Virus record (IMG/VR): IMGVR_UViG_3300009149_000095
Span: 1 to 40,987 of that record
Strand: one strand, 5' to 3'
DNA length: 40,987 bases
Source: a virus
Both the position numbers and the translations under genes were made by a program. Of the stretch, positions 3,258 to 31,169 are shown one piece after another. Under the pieces are notes generated by a model, which did not search any database, was not told the origin of the DNA, and saw nothing but the letters and a program-made list of their open reading frames with translations. Every line of letters begins with the position of its first letter. The stretch's first letter is position 1.

Positions 3258-3397
3258 TTTTCCATTCTCCTCTTAATTTCCATGTAATTCCAATATGCTT
3301 GATACTTCTGATCATCTGAGAAACCCTCTGTTTCATTCTTCCAGACTCTCTCCCAGAAGCTTAATTGTGGATATAGTCGCATAAATTCGATACTCAT
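3254..3397 (-). CDS. Very small early protein, 47 aa
   Basis: ATG at 3397 after a GAGGAAATAAAAAA ribosome binding leader that is also seen before other early genes; the stop overlaps the next ATG by four bases. The product is aromatic (four Trp, several Phe and Tyr) and charged, with no membrane segment. Both junctions fit the pattern of its neighbours, which is the main evidence that this short frame is a gene. Confidence 0.6.
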   Translation of the reverse strand: MSIEFMRLYPQLSFWERVWKNETEGFSDDQKYQAYWNYMEIKRRMEK

Positions 3398-3430
3398 TTT
3401 TTTATTTCCTCGCTTTTATTACTTAATACA

Positions 3431-3655
3431 CTATACTGGCATCTTAGTAAAAATGACAGGTTCACCTTCTACATTGAGAAGTACCTGCTGTTTTGCATCT
3501 GAATCAGCAAAGCTGTACTCTCCTATAAATCCGTCCTTAAAGCTGCTTATTAGCTCTTTTAAGTCACTTTTATTCAATTCCTTATCCATAGCTAGTCTAA
3601 CTACCTTCCCTTCGTATTCAAATACTATGCTGTTAGTTCCTACTATGCAATTCAT
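3431..3655 (-). CDS. Hypothetical early protein, 74 aa
   Basis: Beta-rich beginning (Val/Phe/Tyr alternation to residue 23), a charged helix, then a second beta-like part. It shares one base with the previous gene (TAATG junction). No family recognised. Its stop codon lies inside the start of the repeated junction cassette. Confidence 0.6.
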   Translation of the reverse strand: MNCIVGTNSIVFEYEGKVVRLAMDKELNKSDLKELISSFKDGFIGEYSFADSDAKQQVLLNVEGEPVIFTKMPV

Positions 3656-3897
3656 TACTCTAACTCCAGCTTTATCTGACCATTTGCAGTAATTTCATGT
3701 AGTTTGCTTCCAATAAAAAGAAATTCTTCTATCAAATCCTCTGTCATAGTAGTAAAACTAGCTACTACTCTTACCTGAAATCCCGGACTTGTACATATTC
3801 TATCTATGAGTACGGTCCACTCCACTCCTTCTATCTTAGGCATATTATGCTCAAGATCTTTTATATAATGTTCTAATTCTGTATGGTTAAACATCAT
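3655..3897 (-). CDS. Hypothetical early protein, 80 aa
   Basis: Two adjacent ATG codons at the start; the first overlaps the stop of the zinc-ribbon gene. Acidic product with alternating beta and helical character and one Cys. No known domain. Overlaps on both sides place it firmly in the co-transcribed row. Confidence 0.6.
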   Translation of the reverse strand: MMFNHTELEHYIKDLEHNMPKIEGVEWTVLIDRICTSPGFQVRVVASFTTMTEDLIEEFLFIGSKLHEITANGQIKLELE

Positions 3898-4118
3898 TTT
3901 CTATGCCCCCAATCCACTCCACCTGACCATAACTTATTTAAACTTTCATAACCTGTGTCAGATTTTTCTTTTTTCTCTTCCAATATTTGATCAGCTTTCT
4001 TTTCACACTTAGTACAATGTACCCAATTTCCTGCACATACGATACGAGGAGTGAAGTCCCATTCGGTTCTACACTCTGGACATTTGTCCCCATATTTATC
4101 TTTTTCTTCTTTAGTCAT
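3894..4118 (-). CDS. Small zinc-ribbon protein, 74 aa
   Basis: Cys13-x2-Cys16 and Cys35-x2-Cys38 form a classic two-knuckle zinc ribbon, with a third-type Cys28 between them. The C-terminal part is charged with a Trp/Gly-rich end. Such ribbons in phage early proteins often bind nucleic acid or host transcription proteins, but nothing here fixes a target. The start overlaps the stop of the PQ-loop gene by four bases, so the two are probably translated together. Confidence 0.65.
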   Translation of the reverse strand: MTKEEKDKYGDKCPECRTEWDFTPRIVCAGNWVHCTKCEKKADQILEEKKEKSDTGYESLNKLWSGGVDWGHRK

Positions 4119-4372
4119 CTTCTTTCCCAGTATTTATATTTAAGTATAACTATGCAAAATATGGTGTTTATCCAGTAGTTTACTAATAATGGCATATCTA
4201 GACCATGTTTTAAATACACATAAACCTGCATTAACAACTCTCCAACTAACCACATCCACATAAATAAATTACTTATGCCTCTAGAATGATCATCTTTATA
4301 CGATTTAATCGATTGAGGAAGTCCACAAAATGCAAATAATAATCCTGCTATCCAACCAATTGACTCAATCAT
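4115..4372 (-). CDS. PQ-loop (SemiSWEET-like) membrane protein, 85 aa
   Basis: Three hydrophobic helices are visible, at about residues 4-20, 34-54 and 62-78. A Gly-Leu-Pro-Gln motif at 17-20 ends the first, followed by a charged loop (KSYKDDHSRG) and Ser-Asn, then an Asn-Tyr-Trp-Ile-Asn pattern in the third. This is the layout of one PQ-loop repeat, and the length matches bacterial SemiSWEET proteins, which dimerise to carry sugars across the inner membrane. The substrate here is unknown. It is coupled to a tiny membrane protein upstream and a zinc-ribbon protein downstream. An unusual early phage cargo. Confidence 0.7.
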   Translation of the reverse strand: MIESIGWIAGLLFAFCGLPQSIKSYKDDHSRGISNLFMWMWLVGELLMQVYVYLKHGLDMPLLVNYWINTIFCIVILKYKYWERR

Positions 4373-4500
4373 TAAAACTTTTCCCCATATATTATATATC
4401 GATATGATCCTTTTACTAATAATGCAAAGGTTCCGATTGCCAAAAGTAACATAAGTACTGGTAATAATAAAATATCAACGAATCTTCTTAGTTTATTCAT
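4372..4500 (-). CDS. Tiny single-pass membrane protein, 42 aa
   Basis: The product has a short basic N-terminus (Lys, Arg, Arg), one Leu-rich hydrophobic helix at about residues 8-29 and a Tyr/Lys tail, so the N-terminus is probably cytoplasmic. It overlaps the upstream 66-residue gene by 8 bases, and its stop shares a base with the next start (TAATG). Those tight junctions, not length, make it credible. Confidence 0.6.
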   Translation of the reverse strand: MNKLRRFVDILLLPVLMLLLAIGTFALLVKGSYRYIIYGEKF

Positions 4501-4693
4501 TGGATACCTTTAGCTGCTTCTTAATTTCGGCTATTTTAGCGTCTTCTTTGTCCTGTGCCTCTAATTGCTCTTCTAAGACGTTTTCAAAAAAAGATGATAT
4601 CTCGGTTGCCTTAAGGTTCTTAGTGGCTCCAGAGGCGTTCTCACGCACCAGGAGGCGGTTATTATTTAAAACCTTAATCATATAGTCAAACAT
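4493..4693 (-). CDS. Hypothetical early protein, 66 aa
   Basis: Beta-like first 20 residues, then a long acidic helix to the end. An AGGAAAG ribosome binding site sits 8 bases before ATG 4693, inside the end of the preceding membrane-protein gene. No known family. Confidence 0.6.
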   Translation of the reverse strand: MFDYMIKVLNNNRLLVRENASGATKNLKATEISSFFENVLEEQLEAQDKEDAKIAEIKKQLKVSNE

Positions 4694-4695
4694 AT

Positions 4696-4848
4696 CTAGC
4701 TTTCCTCATAGTATCTCGACACAATTAACGAGATGATTCCAATATATATCATTATTTGTAAATATGCAACATAAATATTTTCTCCGATTCCAGATAAGAC
4801 AATACACACTAGGGATAATATTGTTGCTAAGATGATTTTAATGCTCAT
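4696..4848 (-). CDS. Tiny two-helix membrane protein, 50 aa
   Basis: Two hydrophobic stretches (about residues 4-20 and 27-44), separated by Gly-Ile-Gly-Glu-Asn, fit a two-pass hairpin. The ATG overlaps the end of the upstream gene by 11 bases. Too short and featureless to name; a membrane-active early protein is an inference. A holin role is unlikely given its early position. Confidence 0.6.
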   Translation of the reverse strand: MSIKIILATILSLVCIVLSGIGENIYVAYLQIMIYIGIISLIVSRYYEES

Positions 4849-5029
4849 CTAGTAACTCCTGCTCTAAAAATACTTCTTTTTCTTCTCTTTTCACTACCTT
4901 ACTTCCGTTTTTCGGAATGTAACTAGTCATTGATGACCAGTCTGTTCGATAGAAATAGACGAAGTTTGTTCCATCTCCTAACTGCTCCACATCTTTAACT
5001 GTGTGACGATACATACTAATTCTTTCCAT
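4838..5029 (-). CDS. Hypothetical early protein, 63 aa
   Basis: Small aromatic beta-like N-terminal half with a Lys/Glu-rich tail. It overlaps the upstream gene by 14 bases and the downstream one by 11. No recognised domain. Confidence 0.6.
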   Translation of the reverse strand: MERISMYRHTVKDVEQLGDGTNFVYFYRTDWSSMTSYIPKNGSKVVKREEKEVFLEQELLDEH

Positions 5030-5198
5030 ATCGGGCTTTCTCCAGTAACTTCTCAGTTATATTATTGATTTTGCGTATTATGAATAACTTCTCGGTTTCA
5101 GGCATCTCATAGCTCGACAGACTTGAAATAAGTAGGTCGCGCTCTATTTTTAGCTTCCTAACTTCTTCTTTATCTTCAAATGGTCTAAATTCTGCCAT
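5016..5198 (-). CDS. Hypothetical helical early protein, 60 aa
   Basis: Two charged helices around a Ser-Ser-Tyr-Glu-Met-Pro turn give a helical-hairpin appearance. An AAAGGTG ribosome binding site precedes ATG 5198. It is the first gene after a 102-base gap that carries a 26-base palindrome and a TATAAT, so it probably begins its own transcript. Confidence 0.6.
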   Translation of the reverse strand: MAEFRPFEDKEEVRKLKIERDLLISSLSSYEMPETEKLFIIRKINNITEKLLEKARYGKN

Positions 5199-5220
5199 AT
5201 ATAAAACACCTTTATGATAC

Positions 5221-5246
5221 TGATTATACAGGAATATGTATAATCA
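5221..5246. promoter_or_regulatory. Perfect 10-base inverted repeat over a TATAAT box
   Basis: TGATTATACA (5221-5230) and TGTATAATCA (5237-5246) are exact reverse complements with a six-base spacer. On the minus strand the symmetric block contains TATAAT about 35 bases before the 60-residue gene's start, so a bound protein would block a promoter. It could also form an RNA hairpin. Confidence 0.55.
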
Positions 5247-5300
5247 TAAGTTTTCTATGCATCACCTTATATCGCTGTATTTTTCCTTCAGAAAAATCAG

Positions 5301-5501
5301 CTATCTCTTTTCACCCAAAATTTTTAACAGCTCACTTTGTCGAAAAGCTCTTCTGTCGTTCACAGTGCTACAACCTATACCCATCTCTATTTTTTTATTA
5401 ATGGAAAGATGCGTCCTAGCTCTATAACATGTATCTACATAATACTCTTGTGAGATAGGTCCTCCAGTGAACATCACTAGTAATCTTAATACTTCCATCA
5501 C
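5301..5501 (-). CDS. Hypothetical early protein, 66 aa
   Basis: Hydrophobic N-terminal 12 residues, then a mixed, Arg-rich middle and a basic end. It overlaps the upstream gene by four bases (ATGA). Two adjacent Met codons are possible starts. No family recognised. Confidence 0.55.
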   Translation of the reverse strand: MMEVLRLLVMFTGGPISQEYYVDTCYRARTHLSINKKIEMGIGCSTVNDRRAFRQSELLKILGEKR

Positions 5502-5770
5502 CCTAACTCCTCTATTTTGTGCTCTAACTCTTTAATTTTAGCTTCTTTCTTATCAAGATCTTTCTTCCACAACGCTTTTAACTTAGTGGCAAATCTAATA
5601 TTATGAGTCTTATGATCTTCAGATATCTCGTTTAAGTAATCTTCGAGATACTGAGCATCCTTTCGTATCATTTTTTTAAACTCTAAAGTATTTCCCATAT
5701 AATAGTCTAGTAAATTTACTAACTTATCTATGATCTCTTGACACTTTATAGCTTTTTTTGGTAATTTCAT
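5498..5770 (-). CDS. Hypothetical coiled-coil early protein, 90 aa
   Basis: Almost wholly helical and charged; the last 25 residues (Lys/Glu/Leu with Ile heptad spacing) look like a coiled coil. It overlaps genes on both sides by four bases. No known domain. Confidence 0.6.
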   Translation of the reverse strand: MKLPKKAIKCQEIIDKLVNLLDYYMGNTLEFKKMIRKDAQYLEDYLNEISEDHKTHNIRFATKLKALWKKDLDKKEAKIKELEHKIEELG

Positions 5771-6057
5771 CTCTTAAGTGCCTTAATTTTGGTAGTTATA
5801 TTATTTGGAGTAGTTTTTACCGCTATACATTCTTCCATTAGGATTTCTCCCATTTTAGTTGCCATGTGATACTTAATAAAGTCGTCTTCTTCACTGGTTA
5901 GTGACCCTTTAATGATGGATTGGGAGGACTCTACCTCCACAACCCAACTATTAATCCAGTCCCCTAGCGCAATTTCTCTAGCAATTCTGCCAGATTCTCT
6001 GTCTATACCCTCTATTTTAATTATTTTTTTTAGTTCTAGTATCGATTTACACATCAT
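5767..6057 (-). CDS. Hypothetical early protein, 96 aa
   Basis: Mixed alpha/beta protein with an acidic centre and basic C-terminus. Two consecutive ATG codons at 6057 and 6054 are both possible starts; the only ribosome-binding-like sequence, AAGAGA, is about 11 bases upstream. It is coupled to the following gene by an ATGA overlap. No family recognised. Confidence 0.6.
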   Translation of the reverse strand: MMCKSILELKKIIKIEGIDRESGRIAREIALGDWINSWVVEVESSQSIIKGSLTSEEDDFIKYHMATKMGEILMEECIAVKTTPNNITTKIKALKR

Positions 6058-6070
6058 CTGTCACATTCTC

Positions 6071-6154
6071 TTAGTTAGTTCTGGTTATTAATTCAATAAT
6101 CGCTATCTGACACAGTATACTTACTGCTATTGTCAGCATAGCAGTTACCATCAT
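6071..6154 (-). CDS. Possible tiny membrane peptide, 27 aa
   Basis: A short frame encodes a nearly continuous hydrophobic helix ending in Arg-Thr-Asn, and it lies between two credible genes. No clear ribosome binding site precedes the double ATG. The longer version of this frame begins inside the 55-residue gene and is unlikely. Kept only as a weak call. Confidence 0.25.
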   Translation of the reverse strand: MMVTAMLTIAVSILCQIAIIELITRTN

Positions 6155-6206
6155 GAATGTCAATACGATTTCGTTGCATTTTAAAAGAAAAATACCGTCT
6201 ACCGAG

Positions 6207-6374
6207 TTATTCTTCAAAAGGATCAAATTCTTCATCATAAAACTGAAAAAAGTCCATGATCCTGTAAGCTTCCTCAAGGGAGTCGCCAAGGCTCTCACAT
6301 ATCATGTGGGCATCTTCTTCTGAGAAGGTCATTATCAGTGGAATTTGATGTTTACTAACTGCGCCAAGTGTCAT
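6207..6374 (-). CDS. Acidic early protein, 55 aa, first of leftward cluster
   Basis: ATG 6374 follows an AAAGGAAG ribosome binding site at good spacing, and a plausible promoter (6397-6424) lies just upstream. The product is acidic in its second half, ending in alternating Asp/Glu/Phe residues. That is the general look of small phage proteins that mimic nucleic acid or bind host enzymes, but this is only an analogy. As the promoter-proximal gene it would be made very early. No family recognised. Confidence 0.65.
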   Translation of the reverse strand: MTLGAVSKHQIPLIMTFSEEDAHMICESLGDSLEEAYRIMDFFQFYDEEFDPFEE

Positions 6375-6870
6375 ATCTTCCTTTTTGTTACCTTCTACTC
6401 TAGCACACCCTACTCAAGAGTCAACATATATCTTGATGTCACAGTATGTGGCTTCAAGACAATAGGAACAACTTACTATGATATATAGTAGCAGCTTATC
6501 TGTGGTGCGGTTCTTCTCTAAAGTAAACCTAATCAGTACATCACATATCCCACTATAACATTACCTGCTAAGGTATCAAATGTAAGTTCGTGAGTTAAGA
6601 TTAGCTTGTTAGTTCTAATCCCTACCTTCTGATACTGTCGGACTATTTGCCCTATAAAGCCTCACTGACTGTCAACCCCTATCAAGGCTGCAGTAAAGCT
6701 GTGCAGGTAAGTTAACGTCATCCTGCTTTTCTTGTGACTCGCTTTAGTTTACGTCAAAACGGATAAATACATCGATAACTGTAACACAGTAGTTCAGGGA
6801 TTGCAACACTTACTTGTAAGTATGTGATTTAACTAGTTGGTTAGAAAAATAAGAGTTATTACACCTCACA
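6375..6870. other. Divergent control region, about 500 bases
   Basis: Separates the leftward early cluster from the rightward late genes. No gene is convincing. Visible items are the leftward promoter candidate, a GATTAG/CTAATC inverted repeat at 6599-6620, an ACTTAC-TT-GTAAGT repeat at 6808-6821, a TTGACA on the minus strand at 6674-6669 without a good -10, and a partial match (CCACAGATAA, minus strand near 6500) to the 18-base repeats of the 1.4-1.6 kb region. Confidence 0.5.
6397..6424 (-). promoter_or_regulatory. Candidate main leftward early promoter
   Basis: Minus-strand TTGACT (6424-6419) and TAGAGT (6402-6397) are 16 bases apart, just ahead of the 55-residue gene. The 13-base block AGAGTCAACATAT around the -35 box recurs exactly at 1639-1651 in the other non-coding region. 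The -10 box is only four of six. Confidence 0.4.
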
Positions 6871-6888
6871 TTTAACAACTATATGTGA
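6871..6888 (+). promoter_or_regulatory. T7-like late promoter motif, variant copy
   Basis: TTTAACAACTATATGTGA shares its first 14 bases with the other late copies but lacks the final TATAG. The expected start point would fall on the ribosome binding site of the 84-residue gene, so it may be weak or degenerate. Confidence 0.45.
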
Positions 6889-6899
6889 AGGAGATTACG

Positions 6900-7154
6900 A
6901 TGGATAAAGAATTAAGGATAGCAGCGCTGAAGGAACTTACAGATAAAGAGTACTTTGAGAAAGCTAAGAAAAGAGCATCTAATAGGTCCCAGAAAGTGCT
7001 TGATAAGTATAAAGACGCAAACTTACTTGAGGAGCGACTGAAAGCAAGCAATGAAGCCTACGACATAACACATAAGGGGATGACTCAAGAACAAAAAGAA
7101 GCTTCTGCTGAGGCTGAATACAGAAAAAAAAGAAAAGAGGTAGGGTTAGAGTAA
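6900..7154 (+). CDS. Hypothetical charged protein, 84 aa
   Basis: First rightward gene. ATG 6900 is chosen over an upstream in-frame GTG because AAGGAG (6888-6893) lies 6 bases before it. The product is very rich in Lys, Glu and Ala and probably one long helix. The stop overlaps the next start by one base. No family recognised. Confidence 0.65.
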   Translation: MDKELRIAALKELTDKEYFEKAKKRASNRSQKVLDKYKDANLLEERLKASNEAYDITHKGMTQEQKEASAEAEYRKKRKEVGLE

Positions 7155-7288
7155 TGGACATAGATAAGAACAAAGAACTGAAGAAGCTTAAGAAGAGGAA
7201 AGAGAGAGAGGAGGTCATCGTCCCTATAAAGCAAAAAGATAAGCGACTGTTTAGTAAAATAAGAAACGCAATTAAAAAACAAAAATAA
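7154..7288 (+). CDS. Small very basic protein, 44 aa
   Basis: Shares one base with the previous gene (TAATG). Nearly half the residues are Lys or Arg, arranged in two basic helices. A nucleic-acid-binding role would fit the composition but is not shown. The coupled start and following spacing support it as a gene. Confidence 0.5.
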   Translation: MDIDKNKELKKLKKRKEREEVIVPIKQKDKRLFSKIRNAIKKQK

Positions 7289-7296
7289 GGACATTT

Positions 7297-7614
7297 ATGA
7301 AAAAACTAATTGACTACGTACCTTTAGTGTTACTACTAGCGCTAACACCATTTTTTTACTACAACCAGCCTAATATTGCCCAGTCCATTATGGTTGCTGC
7401 AATTACAGGGCTAGTAGGTTATAAGGCTTATTTAGAAAGTCTCAGAAAGCCTAATTATGTTGAGATATTCACTAGTAGACTTAATGAAGAGAAAGATAGT
7501 ACTGATAAGAAACTTAACGTGCTGTTAAAAGAGATTGAGGAACTTAAAGCTACTCAAGGGAAACTTAACATCGTTAGAAGTACTGAAGATAAGATAAAAA
7601 ACTTTAAATGGTAG
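7297..7614 (+). CDS. Membrane-anchored coiled-coil protein, 105 aa
   Basis: Two hydrophobic stretches (about residues 8-22 and 29-46) are followed by a charged Lys/Glu/Leu helix to the end, which looks like a coiled coil. The layout fits a protein held in the inner membrane with a cytoplasmic tail. Some holins and spanin-like proteins look similar, but no lysis genes flank it, so no role is assigned. It is eight bases downstream of the basic 44-residue gene and seven before the terminase small subunit candidate. Confidence 0.6.
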   Translation: MKKLIDYVPLVLLLALTPFFYYNQPNIAQSIMVAAITGLVGYKAYLESLRKPNYVEIFTSRLNEEKDSTDKKLNVLLKEIEELKATQGKLNIVRSTEDKIKNFKW

Positions 7615-7620
7615 GATAAT

Positions 7621-7968
7621 ATGGATTTTGAACACGATGAGGCTGTAGGAGAACTACTCGCCCTTCAGAAACGTATAGCAGAACTTGAGAACCAGAATGA
7701 TAAACTCAAGTATGTTATAAAAGAAAATGACTTAGAAGATGAAATAGAAGATATTGACTGTACTTCACTTGAAGAGCAGATATGTTCTGGAGGAATCCGA
7801 CACATAGCAAGTTTAGTAGAGTCTCAGGATTATGATGATAAAGATATTAAATCATTCCAGATACTATACAATACATTGAGAGCTATTAGAGGCGCTGCTC
7901 CTAGTACAAAAAAGACAAAGGTTGCCGATGTTGCAGAACTTCTAAAGATTGTAGGGAAGTCTGAATAA
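7621..7968 (+). CDS. Putative terminase small subunit, 115 aa
   Basis: The small terminase recognises phage DNA and hands it to the large subunit. This gene lies directly before TerL and shares one base with it (TAATG). The first 35 residues are a coiled-coil helix; residues 46-90 read Glu-Glu-Gln-Ile-Cys, Gly-Ile, a Lys-Ser-Phe helix and Ile-Arg-Gly. This resembles the EEIC...F..L...IRG pattern I associate with small terminases of several marine phages. The call rests on position plus this weak pattern. Confidence 0.6.
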   Translation: MDFEHDEAVGELLALQKRIAELENQNDKLKYVIKENDLEDEIEDIDCTSLEEQICSGGIRHIASLVESQDYDDKDIKSFQILYNTLRAIRGAAPSTKKTKVADVAELLKIVGKSE

Positions 7969-10499
7969 TGACAAAAGAATATGGAGAACCACCTAAAAGC
8001 TCTAAACGTAAGAAGACGCTAACTAGAGAAGGAGCTATTGAAGCTCTTTGGCGACAAGGTAAGCTATCTTGGAAACTGAAGGGTAAGCAACGAGAGATAT
8101 ACGATCATTTTAATAACACAGACGATAATATATCAGCATGTCTTATTTCTAGACAGTTTGGAAAATCTTTTACATTATGTCTAATGGCAATCGAATTATG
8201 TCTTAACAAGCCAGGAGCTGTCATTAAATACGCATGTCCTACCCAAAAGATGGTAGTCGGTATTATAAAAAAGAGAATAGGAGAAATAATAAGAGACTGT
8301 CCTGATGAAGTAAAACCAGAATGGAAAACACAAGAAAAGATTTGGTTATTTCCTAATGGGTCTGAGATTCAAGTCGCTGGAACGGATGGAAAATCATATG
8401 ATAACCTCAGAGGTGGAACAGCAGATATGTGTGTCGTGGACGAGGCTGGGTTCTGTGATGAGCTAGAGACAGTTATCTACTCCGTACTAGCACCAACAAC
8501 AGATACTACAGGTGGTAAGATTTTTCTAGCATCAACCCCAAATGACGCAAATCCAAATCATGATTTTCATGAGTTGTTTATACATCCTTTAGCCGCATCA
8601 GGAAAGTTATTAAAATTCACATATGAAGACTCTCCTATGGTAGATAATAAGCAAAGAGCTTTGATAGTAGCTAGATATCCTGGTGGTGAGAATAATACTA
8701 AGTTCAGATGCGAATATTTATGCTTTGATGAGAATACTATGGTGAACACATTAGAAGGGTTTAAGAAAATAAAAAACATAAAAAAAGACGATAGAGTATT
8801 TACTCATAAAGGTAATTTGAAATCTGTAGAAAGAGTTTTTAAGAATAAGTATGATGGTAGGAATGTTTACAAATTACATAATACAGGTCTTCCAGTTACT
8901 GTGACAGAAGGACATGAAATATATGTATCTTATGATGGGAACATTCCAGTATGGGAAAAAGTTGAAAATATAGATTTCACCAGACACCCATATTCTGTAA
9001 TAGAACAACATCCTGAGTTAAGTGTAGATCAAATAATAACTGAAGACATGGCTTTTTTAGCAGGATGGTATGTAGCAGAAGGTCATCATAATAAAACTCA
9101 ACAACAAGTAATACTAAGTTTAGCTAAAAAAGATCCTATAGATGAAATTAATTTGGTAGTTAACAACTTATATGGAAAAAACTTAGTTAAATATAAAGAT
9201 GATGAAAATGTTGTTCAAATGGGACTAAATAGTAAGGAAGCTAAAGATTTCCTGAAACCATTTGGCAGAACATCATCATATAAAAAAGTTATAAATTCAA
9301 TAAAATATGCTTCCGATCATATAAAGATGACGTTTCTTAAAGCTTATATCGAAGGAGATGGTCACATGATAGAAAGAAATGGTAGATTGAGAATAGGGTG
9401 TAATTCTACAAGCTATCAATTGATGCAAGATGTAGCGGAAATGTTATATAGTATGAACATAGGTTGTACAATAAAACAAATGCACAAAAAAGGAAAACAT
9501 ATAATAGAAGGTCGTACTGTTAATGTAAATGATTCATGGAGATTATATATATGTGGATCGGATGCGGAGAGGTTTTTAGGTAGAGAAATAACTAAAAGAA
9601 AATCTTCTTGTATAATTAAAGATAATAAAATATATTCTAGATTAAATAAATTAGAATTGATAGATTATGATAAAGAATACGTATACGATATTCAAGTTAA
9701 AGATGACCATTCTTATTCATTAGGGCAATTAATGGTACACAATTGCGAAATTCCAAATGTAACAGAAGCCAACGTAATTCCAGAGTTTTCTCCAGTAGAA
9801 GACAAAATAGTAAAGGAAGTTGAGATCCCAGATCACTGTGATTTCTATACTTCAATGGATTTAGGCTTCAAGGATTTAACTGTGGCACTTTTTGGCTACT
9901 ACGACTTTAAGAATTCGAGACTAGTGATTATAGATGAGTACGTAATAAACGGACCCGAACTTAAGACAGACATACTAGATAAAAACATAAAACATAAAGA
10001 AGAACTTAGATTCAAAAGTACATTGGGAGTTCAGCCAGCATATTTGAGAGTCATGGATAATAATAATCTCATGCTGATAAACGAACTTGCTAGAACATAC
10101 GATCTGACCTTCATACCGACAGCTAAGCATAACAAAGAGCAAGCGGTAGACAATGTGAGAAGATGGATTGAACAAGAAAGGATCGTAATTCATCCGAGAT
10201 GTAAGAACCTTATCTATCATGTAAAATACGCTCAGTGGCAGTTCACACGAGCAGGAACATCCACTGGGAAGTTTAGGCACTTAAAAGGTAATGATACAGC
10301 AGGACTTTTGACATCTCATGCTGATGCATTGGACGCTCTCATATATATGGTAAGAAACATTCATACATACAGAAACCCATTTCCTGAGTTTTATGGTAAT
10401 GAACTTAAACCAAACACACATGTAACAAAGAACTATAGAGAAAATAAAGCATCTCAAAGTGTTGATTTAATGAGAAAAATCATGAATTTAAAAAAATAG
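7968..10499 (+). CDS. terL: Terminase large subunit with embedded intein
   Basis: The packaging motor: an ATPase that pumps DNA through the portal plus a nuclease that cuts it. In the precursor (843 residues), Walker A is Ser-Arg-Gln-Phe-Gly-Lys-Ser at 61-67, Walker B is Met-Cys-Val-Val-Asp-Glu at 154-159, and the coupling motif Ala-Ser-Thr is near 188-190. The intein occupies 252-592. The nuclease part then shows a Met-Asp-Leu-Gly start (Asp631) and a late His-Ala-Asp-Ala-Leu-Asp motif. Without the intein the protein is 502 residues, normal for TerL. The insertion lies between the ATPase and nuclease halves, at the Glu-Tyr-Leu/Cys-Glu junction. Confidence 0.93.
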   Translation: MTKEYGEPPKSSKRKKTLTREGAIEALWRQGKLSWKLKGKQREIYDHFNNTDDNISACLISRQFGKSFTLCLMAIELCLNKPGAVIKYACPTQKMVVGIIKKRIGEIIRDCPDEVKPEWKTQEKIWLFPNGSEIQVAGTDGKSYDNLRGGTADMCVVDEAGFCDELETVIYSVLAPTTDTTGGKIFLASTPNDANPNHDFHELFIHPLAASGKLLKFTYEDSPMVDNKQRALIVARYPGGENNTKFRCEYLCFDENTMVNTLEGFKKIKNIKKDDRVFTHKGNLKSVERVFKNKYDGRNVYKLHNTGLPVTVTEGHEIYVSYDGNIPVWEKVENIDFTRHPYSVIEQHPELSVDQIITEDMAFLAGWYVAEGHHNKTQQQVILSLAKKDPIDEINLVVNNLYGKNLVKYKDDENVVQMGLNSKEAKDFLKPFGRTSSYKKVINSIKYASDHIKMTFLKAYIEGDGHMIERNGRLRIGCNSTSYQLMQDVAEMLYSMNIGCTIKQMHKKGKHIIEGRTVNVNDSWRLYICGSDAERFLGREITKRKSSCIIKDNKIYSRLNKLELIDYDKEYVYDIQVKDDHSYSLGQLMVHNCEIPNVTEANVIPEFSPVEDKIVKEVEIPDHCDFYTSMDLGFKDLTVALFGYYDFKNSRLVIIDEYVINGPELKTDILDKNIKHKEELRFKSTLGVQPAYLRVMDNNNLMLINELARTYDLTFIPTAKHNKEQAVDNVRRWIEQERIVIHPRCKNLIYHVKYAQWQFTRAGTSTGKFRHLKGNDTAGLLTSHADALDALIYMVRNIHTYRNPFPEFYGNELKPNTHVTKNYRENKASQSVDLMRKIMNLKK
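8721..9743 (+). other. Intein in TerL, LAGLIDADG type, 341 aa
   Basis: Codons 252-592. It begins with Cys252 (Cys-Phe-Asp-Glu-Asn-Thr-Met-Val) and has the block B motif Thr-Glu-Gly-His at 313-316. Endonuclease motifs are Leu-Ala-Gly-Trp-Tyr-Val-Ala-Glu-Gly (364-372) and Phe-Leu-Lys-Ala-Tyr-Ile-Glu-Gly-Asp-Gly (456-465). It ends with Tyr-Val-Tyr-Asp-Ile-Gln-Val and terminal His591-Asn592 before Cys593. All splicing residues and both acidic endonuclease residues are present, so splicing and cutting both look possible. Its DNA is visibly more A/T-rich than the flanking extein. Confidence 0.92.
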
Positions 10500-10520
10500 C
10501 TTGACTTTTGTAATACACAT

Positions 10521-10539
10521 TTTAACAACTATATTATAG
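10521..10539 (+). promoter_or_regulatory. T7-like late promoter before portal
   Basis: TTTAACAACTATATTATAG, then ATAATG. Compared with the 18-base form it has one extra base in the centre. The last G would start a 22-base leader that contains AAAGGA ahead of the portal ATG. Confidence 0.6.
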
Positions 10540-10561
10540 ATAATGAAAATAAAGGATAGAT

Positions 10562-13500
10562 ATGTCACGTAATAAATATTTTGCTGCAGATAAGCCAGAT
10601 GTAACAGTAAGATTCTTAGACGAAAAAGCTAAGGATTGGTTCACTGGAATCAGTGACTCTAGTTACCTCAGTAAGATTGAGAGATCTTGGAGAGCTTATT
10701 ATGGGGAATATTACGGAGGATCTGGGAATTCTCATGGTATTAGTTATGGTGGGGAAAGTGGTGAGATCGTAAATCTTGCAGTTAATCACTATAGAAATCT
10801 AGCCAGACATATTCACGTAATGGTTACTGGAACAAGACCAGCATTTCAATGTAGAGCAATCAATACCGATAGGAAATCTCTGATACAAGCAAAGCTAGGA
10901 AACGGGCTTCTCGACTACTATATGCGAGAAATGAGACTCGAAGAAATCCTAAAGCAGGCTGTGGAGTATGCTATTATATTAGGGTCAGGTTATGTAAAAT
11001 TAGAATGGAACAGTACAACTGGTAAAATCTACGACTATGTAGAGCCTGACCCGAGTTCCATTGTTGACGAAGATGAGGATGGTAATCCTGTAGATATTAA
11101 TGGGAACATTCTAGAAGCCCTCCCTCTATATGAAGGTGATATTGGTTATTCTCTAGTGTCTCCATATGATGTTATTTTCGACTCAACAAAAGAGTACTTT
11201 GATAAAAATGACTGGGTGGTGTGTAGAAGTAAGATAAACAGGTACGATCTAGCAGCTAAATATCCAGAGTTTGCTGATAAGATAGTAGAACTGGATACAG
11301 TAGATATAGAACAAAAATCAAAAACACATAGTTCTTATTCAAAAGCAAACCAGACAGATGACGTTTTTATTAAAGAGTTCTTTCATAAGAGAACTGAATC
11401 GATGCCTAATGGTAAATACATGTTGTATGTTGATCAAGATATCATCTTAGAAGATACAATGTTACCTTATAGAGATCTTCCTATTTACAGAATTACACCT
11501 TCGAGTATTATCGGTACACCTTATGGATATACTGATATGTTTGATTTGTTACCACTTCAAGAGATGTTAAATAGTATGTACTCAACTGCAGCTACAAACA
11601 TTAACGCATTTGGTGTCCAATCTATATTATCCCCTAGAGGTGCAGGAATTGAGCCTGAACATGTTGGTAACGGAATGCAGTTCTTACATTATAATGAAGC
11701 TGCAGGTAAGCCTGAGGCTCTACAACTGACTGCAACTTCACCAGAAGTTTATCAAATGATGGGACTACTAGAAAAGACAATGGAAACGTTATCTGGAGTC
11801 AACTCTGTTGCAAGAGGTAATCCAGAACAGTCACTTAGATCTGGTAATGCATTAGCTTTAGTACAATCTCAGGCATTGCAGTTCGTATCAGGATTACAAC
11901 AATCATACGTAAGGTTGCTTGAGGATGTTGGGACAGGGACTATAAACATACTAAAAGACTTTGCTAGTTCTCCAAGAATGATAGCCATTGCTGGAATAAA
12001 TAATACTTCAGAAATGAAAACTTTTAAAGCTGATGATATTAAGTCAATTAACCGAGTGATAGTCGATTCAGGAAACGCCTTGATGAATTGTCTAGAATAT
12101 GGAACCGAAGTAGTTATGTATGACGGAACGTATGAAAAAGTAGAGAACATTAGAGTAGGTGATCTTTTAATGGGACCAGACTCACTTCCTAGAACGGTAG
12201 GCGTAGTAGGTGGCGGAACTGAAGAAATGTTTGAAGTTAGACATAAGAGTAAAAAGAACGACTTAATCTATACCTGTAATAAGAGTCATATAATGACATT
12301 GAAATATTGTTCTAGTGATTCTAGGTATGGGGTTGAAAAAGGACAGGAGATCGATATATCTGTTGGTGATTTTTTAGAGTTACCGGAGAGACACAGTAGA
12401 TTATTAATGGGTTTCAGAAGAGGGATTGAATTAGAGGGTAAAGAATTACCTATTGATCCGTACATATTAGGGTCTTGGTTAGGAGATGGAACTTCTAAAG
12501 AAACTGCGATTACGACAGAAGATTTTGAAGTAAAAACTGCATGGGCTGATTATGCTAATAGTATTGGTATGCATTTAAAGGCGAAAGGTGATACTTATAC
12601 AGGAAATGCTAAAACATATAGAGTAACTTCTGGGATAGCTAACGGTAGATCAGATAGAAATCCTATGATGAATATAATGCAAGAATTAGAATTGATAGGA
12701 AATAAGCATATTCCTCACGTTTATAAGTATAATACTTCTGAGAGTAGATTACAATTATTAGCAGGTTTCATAGATGCAGATGGTACCACTGTAGGTGAAA
12801 CATTTGTTATTAATCAGAAATGTAATATTATATCTGATGGGATCGAATATATAGCAAGATCTCTTGGTTATAAAGTAGGTAGAAGTAAAATAACTAGAAC
12901 TACAAACAAAATGTCAACAGAAGCTGAGTATAACATAATATCTATAGGTGGAGATACTTGGAATATTCCCACTAAAATAGAAAGAAAAAAAGTAAAAAAA
13001 GTTAAGAAACAGAAAGATTGGAGAAATTACGGAATAAAATTAGAATCTATAGGTGAAGGTAAATATTGTGGATTTTCTCTGATAGAAGACCCTCACTTTT
13101 TACTCAAAGATTTTACTGTTACTCATAACAGTACTGCCGGGAGAGCACAAGTTGCAGAGAACCTATTACAGATGGGACTTATAGACAATATTGATAAGTA
13201 TCTAATGGTACTTAACACTGGTAACTTAGACTATCTCACTGATGGTAAGATTGATAACTTGACACTAATTAAGTCAGAGAATGAAGCGATGGTTCGCGGA
13301 GAAGCTCAACAGGCTATTTGGTCTGAGAGACACTCTATTCATATAAAAGAGCATATGGAAGTATTGAATGATACTGAATTAAAGAAAGATCCAGAATTAG
13401 TTCAATTGGTGATGGACCATGTTCAAGAACATGCTAATTTACTACGAACAATAGATCCTTTCTTATTGTCTATGATCGGAGAGCAGTCCATAGCTCCTCA

Positions 13501-13684
13501 GCCTGATCCTAATGCTCCACCAGACCCAGCACCACAAGGACAACCTGTACCTATAGATAATGCCAACGCTCCTATGCTCGCTCCTCAAGACTCACAAGCT
13601 AGTGGTCAGCCTAACTTACCCGAAGCTGCTGGAGTTTCTGATGGACTATTACCACCACAACCTCAAAAACCATCGGATCTATAA
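10562..13684 (+). CDS. Portal protein with embedded intein
   Basis: The portal forms the ring through which DNA enters the head, docking TerL during packaging and the tail afterwards. The precursor is 1040 residues; the intein fills 510-856, leaving 693, near the size of the P22 portal. Recognisable portal features include the Tyr-Gly-Tyr-Thr-Asp-Met-Phe-Asp region near residue 320 and, once spliced, Ala-Leu-Met-Asn/Ser-Thr-Ala-Gly-Arg-Ala followed by Leu-Leu-Gln-Met-Gly, a conserved helix in P22-like portals. The C-terminus is Pro/Gln-rich. AAAGGA lies before the ATG, and the stop shares a base with the next gene. Confidence 0.9.
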   Translation: MSRNKYFAADKPDVTVRFLDEKAKDWFTGISDSSYLSKIERSWRAYYGEYYGGSGNSHGISYGGESGEIVNLAVNHYRNLARHIHVMVTGTRPAFQCRAINTDRKSLIQAKLGNGLLDYYMREMRLEEILKQAVEYAIILGSGYVKLEWNSTTGKIYDYVEPDPSSIVDEDEDGNPVDINGNILEALPLYEGDIGYSLVSPYDVIFDSTKEYFDKNDWVVCRSKINRYDLAAKYPEFADKIVELDTVDIEQKSKTHSSYSKANQTDDVFIKEFFHKRTESMPNGKYMLYVDQDIILEDTMLPYRDLPIYRITPSSIIGTPYGYTDMFDLLPLQEMLNSMYSTAATNINAFGVQSILSPRGAGIEPEHVGNGMQFLHYNEAAGKPEALQLTATSPEVYQMMGLLEKTMETLSGVNSVARGNPEQSLRSGNALALVQSQALQFVSGLQQSYVRLLEDVGTGTINILKDFASSPRMIAIAGINNTSEMKTFKADDIKSINRVIVDSGNALMNCLEYGTEVVMYDGTYEKVENIRVGDLLMGPDSLPRTVGVVGGGTEEMFEVRHKSKKNDLIYTCNKSHIMTLKYCSSDSRYGVEKGQEIDISVGDFLELPERHSRLLMGFRRGIELEGKELPIDPYILGSWLGDGTSKETAITTEDFEVKTAWADYANSIGMHLKAKGDTYTGNAKTYRVTSGIANGRSDRNPMMNIMQELELIGNKHIPHVYKYNTSESRLQLLAGFIDADGTTVGETFVINQKCNIISDGIEYIARSLGYKVGRSKITRTTNKMSTEAEYNIISIGGDTWNIPTKIERKKVKKVKKQKDWRNYGIKLESIGEGKYCGFSLIEDPHFLLKDFTVTHNSTAGRAQVAENLLQMGLIDNIDKYLMVLNTGNLDYLTDGKIDNLTLIKSENEAMVRGEAQQAIWSERHSIHIKEHMEVLNDTELKKDPELVQLVMDHVQEHANLLRTIDPFLLSMIGEQSIAPQPDPNAPPDPAPQGQPVPIDNANAPMLAPQDSQASGQPNLPEAAGVSDGLLPPQPQKPSDL
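12089..13129 (+). other. Intein in portal, LAGLIDADG type, 347 aa
   Basis: Codons 510-856. It starts at Cys510 with the strong block A pattern Gly-Thr-Glu-Val...Asp-Gly-Thr...Val-Gly-Asp-Leu-Leu-Met-Gly-Pro-Asp, has the block B His576, endonuclease motifs Leu-Gly-Ser-Trp-Leu-Gly-Asp-Gly (636-643) and Leu-Ala-Gly-Phe-Ile-Asp-Ala-Asp-Gly (733-741), and ends His855-Asn856 before Ser857. It differs from the TerL intein in sequence and in +1 residue (Ser, not Cys), so the two probably arrived independently. All key residues are present. Confidence 0.92.
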
Positions 13685-17348: not shown

Positions 17349-17537
17349 ATGTTTAAAAAAACAGGAGTTTACATTATTGAAAATATAAATACTGGAAAGT
17401 ATTATATAGGAAGTACCGCTGTGAGCTTTCAGAGTCGATTTAAAGGACATTTAAGTATAAATTTAAAAAAAATATCAATTTTAGCAACAGACATAGAGTC
17501 TGGAACCAGAAATGGGGATTTTAAAGGAAAGGTATAA
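17349..17537 (+). pseudogene. Truncated GIY-YIG endonuclease remnant
   Basis: A 62-residue frame begins with Gly6-Val-Tyr8, Tyr19-Ile-Gly21, Arg30 and His34, a clear GIY-YIG N-terminal half as in homing endonucleases. The part that should carry the catalytic Glu and the DNA-binding tail is missing; after residue 40 the sequence is unrelated-looking and stops two bases before the fibre gene ATG. A possible ribosome binding site (AGGA) remains. Most likely a decayed mobile endonuclease; a small active or regulatory protein cannot be excluded. Confidence 0.65.
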
Positions 17538-17538
17538 C

Positions 17539-20490
17539 ATGTTGAAATCACGTAAATTTTCAAAAGATATTAGAATTAAGGGAACAACTGATGCGGCAAC
17601 ATTAGACGGAGAGATCCGTAATGATAAAACTGCTAAAAGAACCAAAGTATATCACGACACTGATGGTGTAGACGCTGCTGGAGAACGTGAAGTAGTAACT
17701 GAAGACCAAACTCAAATATTAACTAATAAAACACATACAAGTCCTGTAATCAATACAGGAGTATCCGGTACAGCAATTGATACAGACGCTGCTTTAACTG
17801 CCGATTCTGATACATTATTAGCCTCACAGAAGGCAGTGAAGGCTTATGTAGATGCTCAGATCCTAACAAAAGACGAAGCTTCTGAGATAGCGTATGATAA
17901 CTCAACGTCAGGGTTAACAGCAGCTAATGTACAAACTGCTGTAGATGAAGTAGAGGGTAGATTAGATACTGCTGAAACTTCAATAGGTAATAATGCCACT
18001 GCTGTATCAGATCACTTAGCTGATACCACAGACGCTCACGATGCTTCTGCGATATCTAATGTCGCAACAGCAACGCTACTCGCTACTCACGTTCAAGGAG
18101 CTTTAAACGAGTTAGATGGTGAGATAGTTACAAACACAACTAACATAGGAACAAACGCTACAAGCATATCAGATCACTTAGCTGATGCTGTAGACGCTCA
18201 CGATGCTTCTGCAATATCTTTCAATAATGTTACTTCAGGACTCACAGCAATTGAAGCTCAAGCAGCTCTTGATGAAATAGACGGTAACTTAGACTCTCAC
18301 GAAGCTGCGACTGCTTCAGTTCACGGAGTATCTGGATTTGTATTAGGATCAACTGACACACAAGATATATCAAATAAGACATTCGTTGGACCTGTATCAA
18401 ACGAAATACAATCCGCCACTGGAGCTGGATCAGTTTCTTTAACAGTATCTAAGCCAGTAATAGAATTAGGCGGTACCATAACAAAGGTATTTGGCTTAAG
18501 TTTTTCTGGGAACTATGAATGTAAAGTAATAAATAGAACTGGATCTACTGTAACAATTGGTAATGAAGATACTGGAAATGTTATAGCAACTACTCGAATA
18601 CTAACTGGAACTGGTCTAGACATAGATCTACTAGATAATCAAGCTGTAGCAATGCAATATAGTGATACTGAAAACAGATGGAATGTAATCGGTGGAACTG
18701 GATCAGCAACTGCTACCGGAGGATCTGGTGGAATTAACTATCTAAAAGGTGACGATACCAACTTTGAAACTTCAGTAGGTAACTGGTTGGATACAACTGG
18801 TTTAAATATAACTGCAACTAGTGGATCTACTGTTCTTAGAGGTTTAAAAACAGGAGCTATTGGTAAAAGTTCTGGAGATGTATCAGGTGCTCAAGCTTAT
18901 GTTGATTTTACTATTGATAAAGCTGATTTAGCTAAAAAACTTACTATTAGTTTTGATTATGATGCTAGTGATGCAAATTTAGCTGATGGAGCTTTTATTG
19001 TAAAAATAATTCAAGACCCATCAGGAACTCCAATAACAATATTACCAAACGGATCTGATATCAAAGCTGGAGCTAATAAGACTCATTATGCTCAATTTCA
19101 GACTGATCACACAGAATTAGATTATAGGTTAGTTATTGAACATGCTACCACAGAAACATCATCATACTCACTTTATATTGATAATGTATCAGTAGGTCCA
19201 ACTAATTTAGCTTTTGGAGCAATACAAATTGATCCTACTGACTATACTCCAACAATAACTGGCGGTTTTGTTTTAGGGAACGGTGCAATTAATAATTCAT
19301 GGTATGCAAGAAATGGTAAGTTTCTATCTGGTAGAATTGACATAACAGTTGGGACTACAACTACACAAGGGGCATTGGTATTCACATTACCACCTGGGCT
19401 GCAAATTGATCCTACATTGGATGGTGGGGTTCCTAACTATGGTAATGTTACTTATTTTGACGCAGGAACTAGCTTCTATGATGGTTATGTTTTTAAAAAC
19501 ACAAATACACAATTGGTAGCGTATGCAAAAGGTACATCTACCGCAGCGTTAGGAACTATTGTACCATCATCTACGATACCATTTACTTGGGTTTCAGGTG
19601 ATGTAATTTCTATTGTTTTTGATAATGTTCCAATCCAAGGTTGGTCATCTAACGCTCAAATGAGTGAAGACTTAGGTGGTAGGGAAGTAGTTGTAGAAGG
19701 TGCTGGATCTAATACAACAACTGCAACAGCTAACGTAACTGATATTAGTTGGATTGAAACTAAAGACACTACGTCCTCTTGGAATGGTACACAGTTTACA
19801 GTACCAGAATCAGGACAATACTTAATTAATGGTCATGTTGCCCATACATCGGCAGCTAATATTCAAATGTATATAGATGATGTTCCTGATAAATTTGTTG
19901 GAATGGCTAGCGATCCGACTAATATACGAAAAGCAATGGTTGGTTTATTTAGTTTTGTTAAAGGTCAGGTAATTTCTTTTAGATCGAATACAACAATGAC
20001 CGTTACAAACAATATAACCGTTCATTGGTTATCAATCGTTAAACTTGCATCACCACAAACGATGCTAGAGACTGAGACGGTAACTGCGAGATATACTAGT
20101 AATAGTGGTCAGAGTATACCTTATGCATCTTACACTACTATTATATACGAAGATCTTGATTTCGATACTCACGGAGCCTATAATCCATCTACTGGAATAT
20201 ATACCGCATCTGTATCTGGGTATTATCAGGTAAACTCTTTTATATGGATGACACTATCAGGACCTGGGTCTGGGGTTATTTCACCATTTAAAAATGGAGC
20301 TATATATCAAGATGGAGACGCTAGTACTTCAATATCGGATGAGCAATCGTGTTCATTTTCTGGGTTGGTTAGACTTGAAAAAGGAGACACACTAGATATG
20401 AGATTATATCAGGCTAGTCCAGATACTTTATCGAAAACTTTACATACGAATAGTCTTAGAAACGTATTTACAATAGCAAGGATTAAATAA
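17539..20490 (+). CDS. Large tail fibre / receptor-binding protein
   Basis: 983 residues from ATG 17539, chosen because AAGGAAAGG precedes it. The N-terminal third holds fibre motifs: Leu-Thr-Asn-Lys-Thr, Ser-Gln-Lys-Ala-Val-Lys-Ala-Tyr-Val, and repeats with Asp-Asn-x-Thr-Ser-Gly-Leu-Thr-Ala and Asp-His-Leu-Ala-Asp...Asp-Ala-His-Asp-Ala-Ser-Ala-Ile-Ser (twice). Residues about 398-555 look like a jelly-roll carbohydrate-binding domain (Asn-Phe-Glu...Gly-Asn-Trp start). Residues about 710-835 and 845-983 look like two C1q/TNF-type beta domains, common trimeric fibre tips. It probably binds the host surface. Confidence 0.8.
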   Translation: MLKSRKFSKDIRIKGTTDAATLDGEIRNDKTAKRTKVYHDTDGVDAAGEREVVTEDQTQILTNKTHTSPVINTGVSGTAIDTDAALTADSDTLLASQKAVKAYVDAQILTKDEASEIAYDNSTSGLTAANVQTAVDEVEGRLDTAETSIGNNATAVSDHLADTTDAHDASAISNVATATLLATHVQGALNELDGEIVTNTTNIGTNATSISDHLADAVDAHDASAISFNNVTSGLTAIEAQAALDEIDGNLDSHEAATASVHGVSGFVLGSTDTQDISNKTFVGPVSNEIQSATGAGSVSLTVSKPVIELGGTITKVFGLSFSGNYECKVINRTGSTVTIGNEDTGNVIATTRILTGTGLDIDLLDNQAVAMQYSDTENRWNVIGGTGSATATGGSGGINYLKGDDTNFETSVGNWLDTTGLNITATSGSTVLRGLKTGAIGKSSGDVSGAQAYVDFTIDKADLAKKLTISFDYDASDANLADGAFIVKIIQDPSGTPITILPNGSDIKAGANKTHYAQFQTDHTELDYRLVIEHATTETSSYSLYIDNVSVGPTNLAFGAIQIDPTDYTPTITGGFVLGNGAINNSWYARNGKFLSGRIDITVGTTTTQGALVFTLPPGLQIDPTLDGGVPNYGNVTYFDAGTSFYDGYVFKNTNTQLVAYAKGTSTAALGTIVPSSTIPFTWVSGDVISIVFDNVPIQGWSSNAQMSEDLGGREVVVEGAGSNTTTATANVTDISWIETKDTTSSWNGTQFTVPESGQYLINGHVAHTSAANIQMYIDDVPDKFVGMASDPTNIRKAMVGLFSFVKGQVISFRSNTTMTVTNNITVHWLSIVKLASPQTMLETETVTARYTSNSGQSIPYASYTTIIYEDLDFDTHGAYNPSTGIYTASVSGYYQVNSFIWMTLSGPGSGVISPFKNGAIYQDGDASTSISDEQSCSFSGLVRLEKGDTLDMRLYQASPDTLSKTLHTNSLRNVFTIARIK

Positions 20491-30203: not shown

Positions 30204-31169
30204 GTGGCAAGAGTATTAACAGGAGACAGTATGGTGAACTCTGTACGAAAGCGCACCATGACACCAGAAGATACCAGTGTATTTACTGATGACGATATAT
30301 TAGAAATTGTAGACGAAGAATTAAATGTTCAGGTACTTGATAAGCTAATAGTACTTCATGGGGAAAATCTTACAATAGAAGTAGATGTCCCAAGAAACAC
30401 AGAAGGATCTTACACAATACCTTATAGGGCTGTCGGTAATAAGTTACGAGACATATCCCTGATTAGTGGTTCTGCTATTTTTGAGATGTCACAAATAAGC
30501 ATTGGAGAACTTCCTGACTACGCTTATGGAGATTCTTTGTTGAGCTATATCGATAAGTTCTACGTGCAAAATAACAAAATACACTTAATAGATACTACTA
30601 GATCATACGAATCTCTTAGGATTAGATATTACCTAAGACCTAGCTTCTTAACTAAATTAGATAAAGCTGGTGTTATTTCTGAAATAGTTAAAGATACTAT
30701 CTTAAATACTCTAACAATAACTATGTCAAGTGTCGGTAAAAACTTTACCGATAACAGTAAATATGATATTGTTGGACATAATTCTCCTAATAATATAAAA
30801 GCTTTTGATAAGCAACCTACTTCACTCACTACAGGTACTACCGGAATCATAGTATTTAATCTAGACGATTTCGGAAAAGAATTGACAGACATAGAAGTGG
30901 GTGACTATATGACAATTGCACAAGAAACTCCAGTTCCTAATATACCAACAGAAATGCATCCTCTTCTTGCTCAGGCTGCTGCAGTAAATATACTAGAGTC
31001 ATTGACTGATACTGAAGCTTTGTCAAACGCTGAGAGAAGAATGAGTAAAATGACAACAGCAGTACAAACACTTATCGATGATAGAGTTGAATTAGCCCCT
31101 AAGAAGATCAAACCTAGACATGGAACATTGGCATCATCAATACGTCCTAATAATAGAGGTAAATACTAA
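30204..31169 (+). CDS. Putative head-tail adaptor (neck) protein, 321 aa
   Basis: GTG 30204 is chosen because AGGAG sits 6 bases before it. The C-terminal third has helices with Met-His-Pro-Leu-Leu-Ala-Gln-Ala-Ala-Ala and Asp-Asp-Arg-Val-Glu-x-Ala-Pro-Lys-Lys-Ile-x-x-Arg-His, which I associate with neck proteins next to nozzle genes in P22-like phages. The middle holds a beta insertion (about 165-250). The stop overlaps the nozzle gene by one base. It would bind beneath the portal ring and carry the tail. Confidence 0.6.
   Translation: MARVLTGDSMVNSVRKRTMTPEDTSVFTDDDILEIVDEELNVQVLDKLIVLHGENLTIEVDVPRNTEGSYTIPYRAVGNKLRDISLISGSAIFEMSQISIGELPDYAYGDSLLSYIDKFYVQNNKIHLIDTTRSYESLRIRYYLRPSFLTKLDKAGVISEIVKDTILNTLTITMSSVGKNFTDNSKYDIVGHNSPNNIKAFDKQPTSLTTGTTGIIVFNLDDFGKELTDIEVGDYMTIAQETPVPNIPTEMHPLLAQAAAVNILESLTDTEALSNAERRMSKMTTAVQTLIDDRVELAPKKIKPRHGTLASSIRPNNRGKY

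Follow-up and report, generated by a model that had tools for sequence, protein, structure and literature searches.

Inteins are common in the large terminase subunit (TerL) of phages, and the initial annotation of this locus named them as known. In subcluster C1 mycobacteriophages, Kelley et al. 2016 described 33 inteins of terminase-like proteins and 6 of portal proteins; among the terminase inteins, splicing was shown for five and cleavage of the empty allele for two (PMC5050341). An intein was also reported in the terminase gp239 of mycobacteriophage ET08 (PMC3029335). The TerL of cyanophage Mic1 contains two, one in the ATPase domain and one in the nuclease domain, for which a control role was put forward as speculation (PMC7156551). 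In the crAss-like phages of the Delta group, TerL typically carries an intein, and one genome has two (PMC7886860).

The window analyzed here is the linear IMG/VR virus record IMGVR_UViG_3300009149_000095, 40,987 bases in length. It contains adjacent long reading frames for TerL and the portal protein, both open, and each has an in-frame interruption. The motifs below were located in the sequence, with alignments also used for block B of the portal intein and an alignment with PI-SceI for its first LAGLIDADG motif.

7968 to 10499, plus strand: terL gene; precursor of 843 aa, spliced product of 502 aa
8721 to 9743, plus strand: TerL intein, 341 aa (TerL aa 252 to 592), from Cys1 to His-Asn341, followed by Cys+1
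8904 to 8915, plus strand: TerL intein block B, TEGH (TxxH, intein residues 62 to 65)
9054 to 9083, plus strand: TerL intein LAGLIDADG motif 1, FLAGWYVAEG
9333 to 9362, plus strand: TerL intein LAGLIDADG motif 2, FLKAYIEGDG
9738 to 9743, plus strand: TerL intein C-terminal His-Asn, then the native Cys+1
10562 to 13684, plus strand: portal gene; precursor of 1040 aa, spliced product of 693 aa
12089 to 13129, plus strand: portal intein of the PI-SceI type, 347 aa (portal aa 510 to 856), from Cys1 to His-Asn347, followed by Ser+1
12278 to 12289, plus strand: portal intein block B, NKSH (NxxH, residues 64 to 67)
12461 to 12490, plus strand: portal intein LAGLIDADG motif 1, YILGSWLGDG
12758 to 12784, plus strand: portal intein LAGLIDADG motif 2, LAGFIDADG
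13124 to 13129, plus strand: portal intein C-terminal His-Asn, then the native Ser+1

The first gene encodes a T4-type large terminase subunit (Terminase_6N, 33.8 bits with a cutoff of 22; PHROG 2, E value of 8.5e-28). After removal of the insert, its product aligned end to end with intein-free relatives. The second gene encodes a P22-like portal (P22_portal, 45.1 bits with a cutoff of 26.1; PHROG 156, E value of 1.9e-25). Both inserts are richer in AT than their exteins, with a GC content of 0.29 versus 0.36 to 0.37 in TerL and 0.33 versus 0.37 to 0.41 in the portal gene. A search of all six frames of the window with profiles of its two inteins found no third intein. A DNA search of the window against phages gave no match. 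Elsewhere in the window, positions 17512 to 20490 encode a 992-aa protein with a C1q-like stretch at the C terminus, slightly below the Pfam cutoff, and positions 31169 to 35635 encode a 1,488-aa protein with four CBM_5_12 carbohydrate-binding stretches, perhaps a tail or fiber protein.

Both inserts have the motifs of class 1 inteins, namely Cys1, a TxxH or NxxH block B, a terminal His-Asn, and Cys or Ser at +1. In each, the intein (Hint) and LAGLIDADG profile matches fall within the insert, and both LAGLIDADG motifs retain their acidic residues. The initial annotation had described two complete and different inteins, with Cys at +1 in TerL and Ser at +1 in the portal protein. The analysis bore this out, including the splice residues and both endonuclease motifs of each intein. 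The Intein_splicing match of the TerL insert scored below its cutoff (30.8 bits versus 35.8).

The TerL intein lies between the junctions EYL/CFDENT and LMVHN/CEIP (the slash marks the splice point). It matched LAGLIDADG_3 (50.5 bits) and, above cutoff, TIGR01443 intein_Cterm; its Hint_2 match was below cutoff. The insertion site is at the boundary of the ATPase and nuclease parts, at the end of the ATPase domain where it adjoins the nuclease part. Terminase_6N extends to around residue 264 in L003, and Terminase_3C begins around residue 290 in L013 and L012; these domain limits in relatives agree with the earlier placement between the two halves. We searched for a close relative of this intein and found none. 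Its phage relatives are inteins of methylases and anaerobic ribonucleotide reductases (23 to 26% identity), and it gave weak matches to PI-PkoII and TliVMA. It did not match PI-SceI, and it had no significant similarity to the portal intein of the window. By sequence comparison, the TerL intein belongs to a group other than the PI-SceI-type portal intein.

The portal intein lies between the junctions LMN/CLEYGT and TVTHN/STAG and matched the profiles Hom_end_hint (58.5 bits with a cutoff of 32.1) and Hom_end (38 bits with a cutoff of 21.1). Homologues with 55 to 59% identity occupy the identical residue in three relatives (L025, L064, and L118). The block B residues N64 and H67 are invariant in all four portal-site inteins, and H67 is present in all 18 family members, as are G226, D229, and G232 of the second LAGLIDADG motif. 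A profile of the 18 portal-type inteins matched PI-SceI (1dfa) from the first to the last residue, with an E value of 1.8e-47. An earlier structure model built from only four sequences was poor (pLDDT of 50), and the model built from the alignment of 18 sequences had a mean pLDDT of 92.4. Foldseek placed PI-SceI as the best solved match to this model (E value of 4.2e-27; TM-score of 0.80, normalized to the query). The modeled portal intein therefore has the Hint and LAGLIDADG fold of PI-SceI from the yeast VMA protein and is of the VMA type. The portal profile matched no solved structure, and the site was therefore placed by Pfam and conservation only. The other members of the portal-intein group found here are, for the most part, inserted in the Walker A motifs of diverse proteins. 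In L163, positions 890 to 1303 encode an insert of about 138 aa at a Walker A-like site (SRQMGK/C to HN/S), which matches both ends of the portal-type inteins and resembles a mini-intein after loss of the endonuclease.

About 20 close relatives lack both inserts, and their flanks align base to base, with no gap, at both sites. The one irregularity, in L006, was a small one in the TerL alignment by the junction, with no insert. Over 40 bases at the empty sites, the DNA of relatives reached 88% identity to the window for TerL and 78% for the portal gene, and the nearest relative, L003, has an empty site with 92% identity over the portal N-extein. Because the flanks abut exactly in these relatives, the inserts are not ordinary domains, and the junctions are fixed. 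The contig is metagenomic, which leaves some room for the idea that the inserts are assembly artifacts or ordinary domains. However, the inserts keep the reading frame, the portal junction was found again in three independent contigs, and the profile matches and PI-SceI fold are those of inteins. We therefore give this idea almost no weight.

The residue at +1 is Cys in 51 of the 64 insert-free TerL sequences (a count that includes the spliced form from the window) and Thr or Ser in all 75 portal sequences. In these alignments, the +1 nucleophiles are native and older than the inteins at both sites. Both inteins had been said to lie at conserved spots. They do, but the conservation is moderate, since the 5 residues on either side of the site rank at the 75th percentile within TerL and at the 83rd percentile within the portal protein.

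Two profile scans and single-protein scans recovered 83 relatives, taken as distinct by a rough 60-residue identity filter. Both genes were readable in 62, and the window was added by hand to give a set of 63, the counts from which are samples because the scans require exact peptide patterns. A scan of genome contigs for portal relatives confirmed none. Within the set, a TerL intein was present in six phages (the window, L004, L063, L077, L114, and L118) and the portal intein in four (the window, L025, L064, and L118), and 55 had neither. Only the window and L118 have both; two phages have the portal intein alone and four a TerL intein alone. All portal inteins share one site, versus three sites in TerL. 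Four phages (L004, L063, L077, and L118) use the Walker A (P-loop) site, GK/S or GK/T, with inteins that are 45 to 52% identical. The boundary site EYL/C is used by the window only. L114, whose portal gene is empty, has its intein (6306 to 7448) at a nuclease-motif site, GHYDA/CDAI. This intein is a distant relative of the TerL intein of the window (24% identity by BLASTP) and shares its block B residues T62 and H65. A different element was seen in L014, where a 176-aa gene (3344 to 3871) lies between TerL and portal, with the same spacing in L013 and L015. On visual inspection, its product looks like an HNH endonuclease, with CxxC pairs and HVDHIVPL...NLQ, but Pfam gave no match.

The initial annotation had suggested that packaging as a whole might be gated by splicing. 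In that case, both inteins would await a signal such as redox, temperature, or a late-infection state. The attraction of the proposal is that TerL and portal are both packaging components, that splicing of some inteins elsewhere depends on conditions (cited in PMC7156551), and that a Cys is found at position -4 of the TerL junction. However, this Cys is present in all nine close sequences, intein-free ones included. It is therefore native to the clade and does not represent redox adaptation to an intein. A non-His penultimate residue is a reported modulator of splicing in mycobacteriophages (PMC5050341), but both inteins of the window have the canonical penultimate His and terminal Asn. We found no derived redox or temperature feature. 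Most of the phages surveyed do without either intein, and six manage with only one. Furthermore, the two inteins of the window are not significantly similar, and the L118 pair uses a different TerL site. Because the +1 and -4 residues are native, the penultimate His is kept, and most relatives lack inteins, we consider gating of the whole of packaging very improbable, and the comparison does not support the proposal. The same low standing applies to a novel form of it, in which delayed or conditional splicing of both motor parts would time packaging and L118 would be an independent case.

The inteins come and go separately among relatives, and mobile elements are therefore a better explanation than a coordinated switch. 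A test of overlap between the TerL and portal inteins gave a P value of 0.042 with the window included, although the window was picked for having both. Without it, the probability of one or more overlaps was 0.23; relatedness was uncorrected in either test. The pairing of a portal-site intein with a TerL-site intein is probably coincidental, in genes that are often invaded in this lineage.

The portal-site inteins form one clade (support of 100/99), and a single entry of this intein group into the site is therefore probable. The four carriers are scattered over the portal tree, a distribution that needs four changes, at least three of them forced by supported branches. Homing gain and repeated replacement by empty alleles would both fit this patchy distribution; homing is favored because the endonuclease motifs are kept. 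Compared with L003, no co-conversion tract was seen at either site, and nucleotide identity at the insertion sites (0.74 for TerL and 0.72 for portal) was not above that of the surroundings. This absence weakens recent homing but does not exclude it. The inteins might instead splice with dead endonucleases and be inherited vertically with repeated loss. Consistent with this, the portal inteins of the window and the other carriers are about as similar (55 to 59%) as their portal exteins (51 to 62%), and the intein and portal trees are roughly alike in topology. However, the acidic residues are kept in both LAGLIDADG motifs of both inteins. Many exact excisions or empty-allele replacements would also be needed, because many empty relatives separate the carriers, including L003 with its closely similar portal gene. 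Vertical descent with dead endonucleases is thus very improbable, if a little less so than gating.

We suggest that, very probably, two separate large homing inteins invaded neighboring conserved genes. Both precursors most likely splice themselves by the class 1 mechanism, which would restore normal TerL and portal proteins. In this mechanism, an acyl shift at Cys1 would be followed by transesterification, with Cys+1 as the acceptor in TerL and Ser+1 in the portal protein, and by Asn cyclization. When related phages co-infect a cell, the LAGLIDADG part of each excised intein most likely cleaves the empty allele, and repair would then copy the intein into that allele.

A TerL plus portal pair has now been documented twice in one uncultivated lineage, together with empty-site relatives. 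Its inteins occupy three sites in TerL and one in the portal gene, which makes the lineage a useful natural system in which to test intein homing from phage to phage. It is also a warning that intein-bearing packaging genes should not be read as regulatory switches without splicing data.

Among known systems, PI-SceI, the yeast VMA1 intein, is like the portal intein in its Hint and LAGLIDADG fold, Cys1, two LAGLIDADG motifs, and His-Asn end. The two are about 22% identical, with 454 aa in PI-SceI versus 347 aa here. The VMA intein is followed by Cys+1, whereas the host protein here is a phage portal with Ser+1. The C1 mycobacteriophages likewise have inteins in both terminase and portal (PORT) proteins, but all seven of their terminase sites are within the ATPase domain, whereas the site in the window is at its end, by the nuclease part (PMC5050341). 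Mic1 resembles the window in having a double intein in the packaging machinery, a large intein with an endonuclease domain, and speculation about gating; however, both of its inteins are in TerL, and a portal intein is unreported (PMC7156551). In the crAss-like Delta phages, unlike the window, a TerL plus portal pair is not described in the accessible part of the report (PMC7886860). We found no description of such a pair in one phage in the open-licence literature, which is weak evidence of novelty. As far as checked, the ATPase-nuclease boundary site in TerL, the P22-like portal site, and the occurrence of the pair in two phages are new. The pair had been called unusual. It is indeed rare (2 of 63), but it recurs, and both intein types were already seen in subcluster C1 (PMC5050341). 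The closest counterpart is L118 (IMGVR_UViG_3300003890_000011; locus positions 3747 to 6296 for TerL and 6337 to 9423 for the portal gene), which is of the same lineage and has both inteins, with an identical portal site. Its TerL intein, however, is in Walker A (GK/S) and has no significant similarity to that of the window, and its TerL has Val at the position that is +1 in the window. The proposed mechanism is ordinary, and the pair is uncommon but recurrent.
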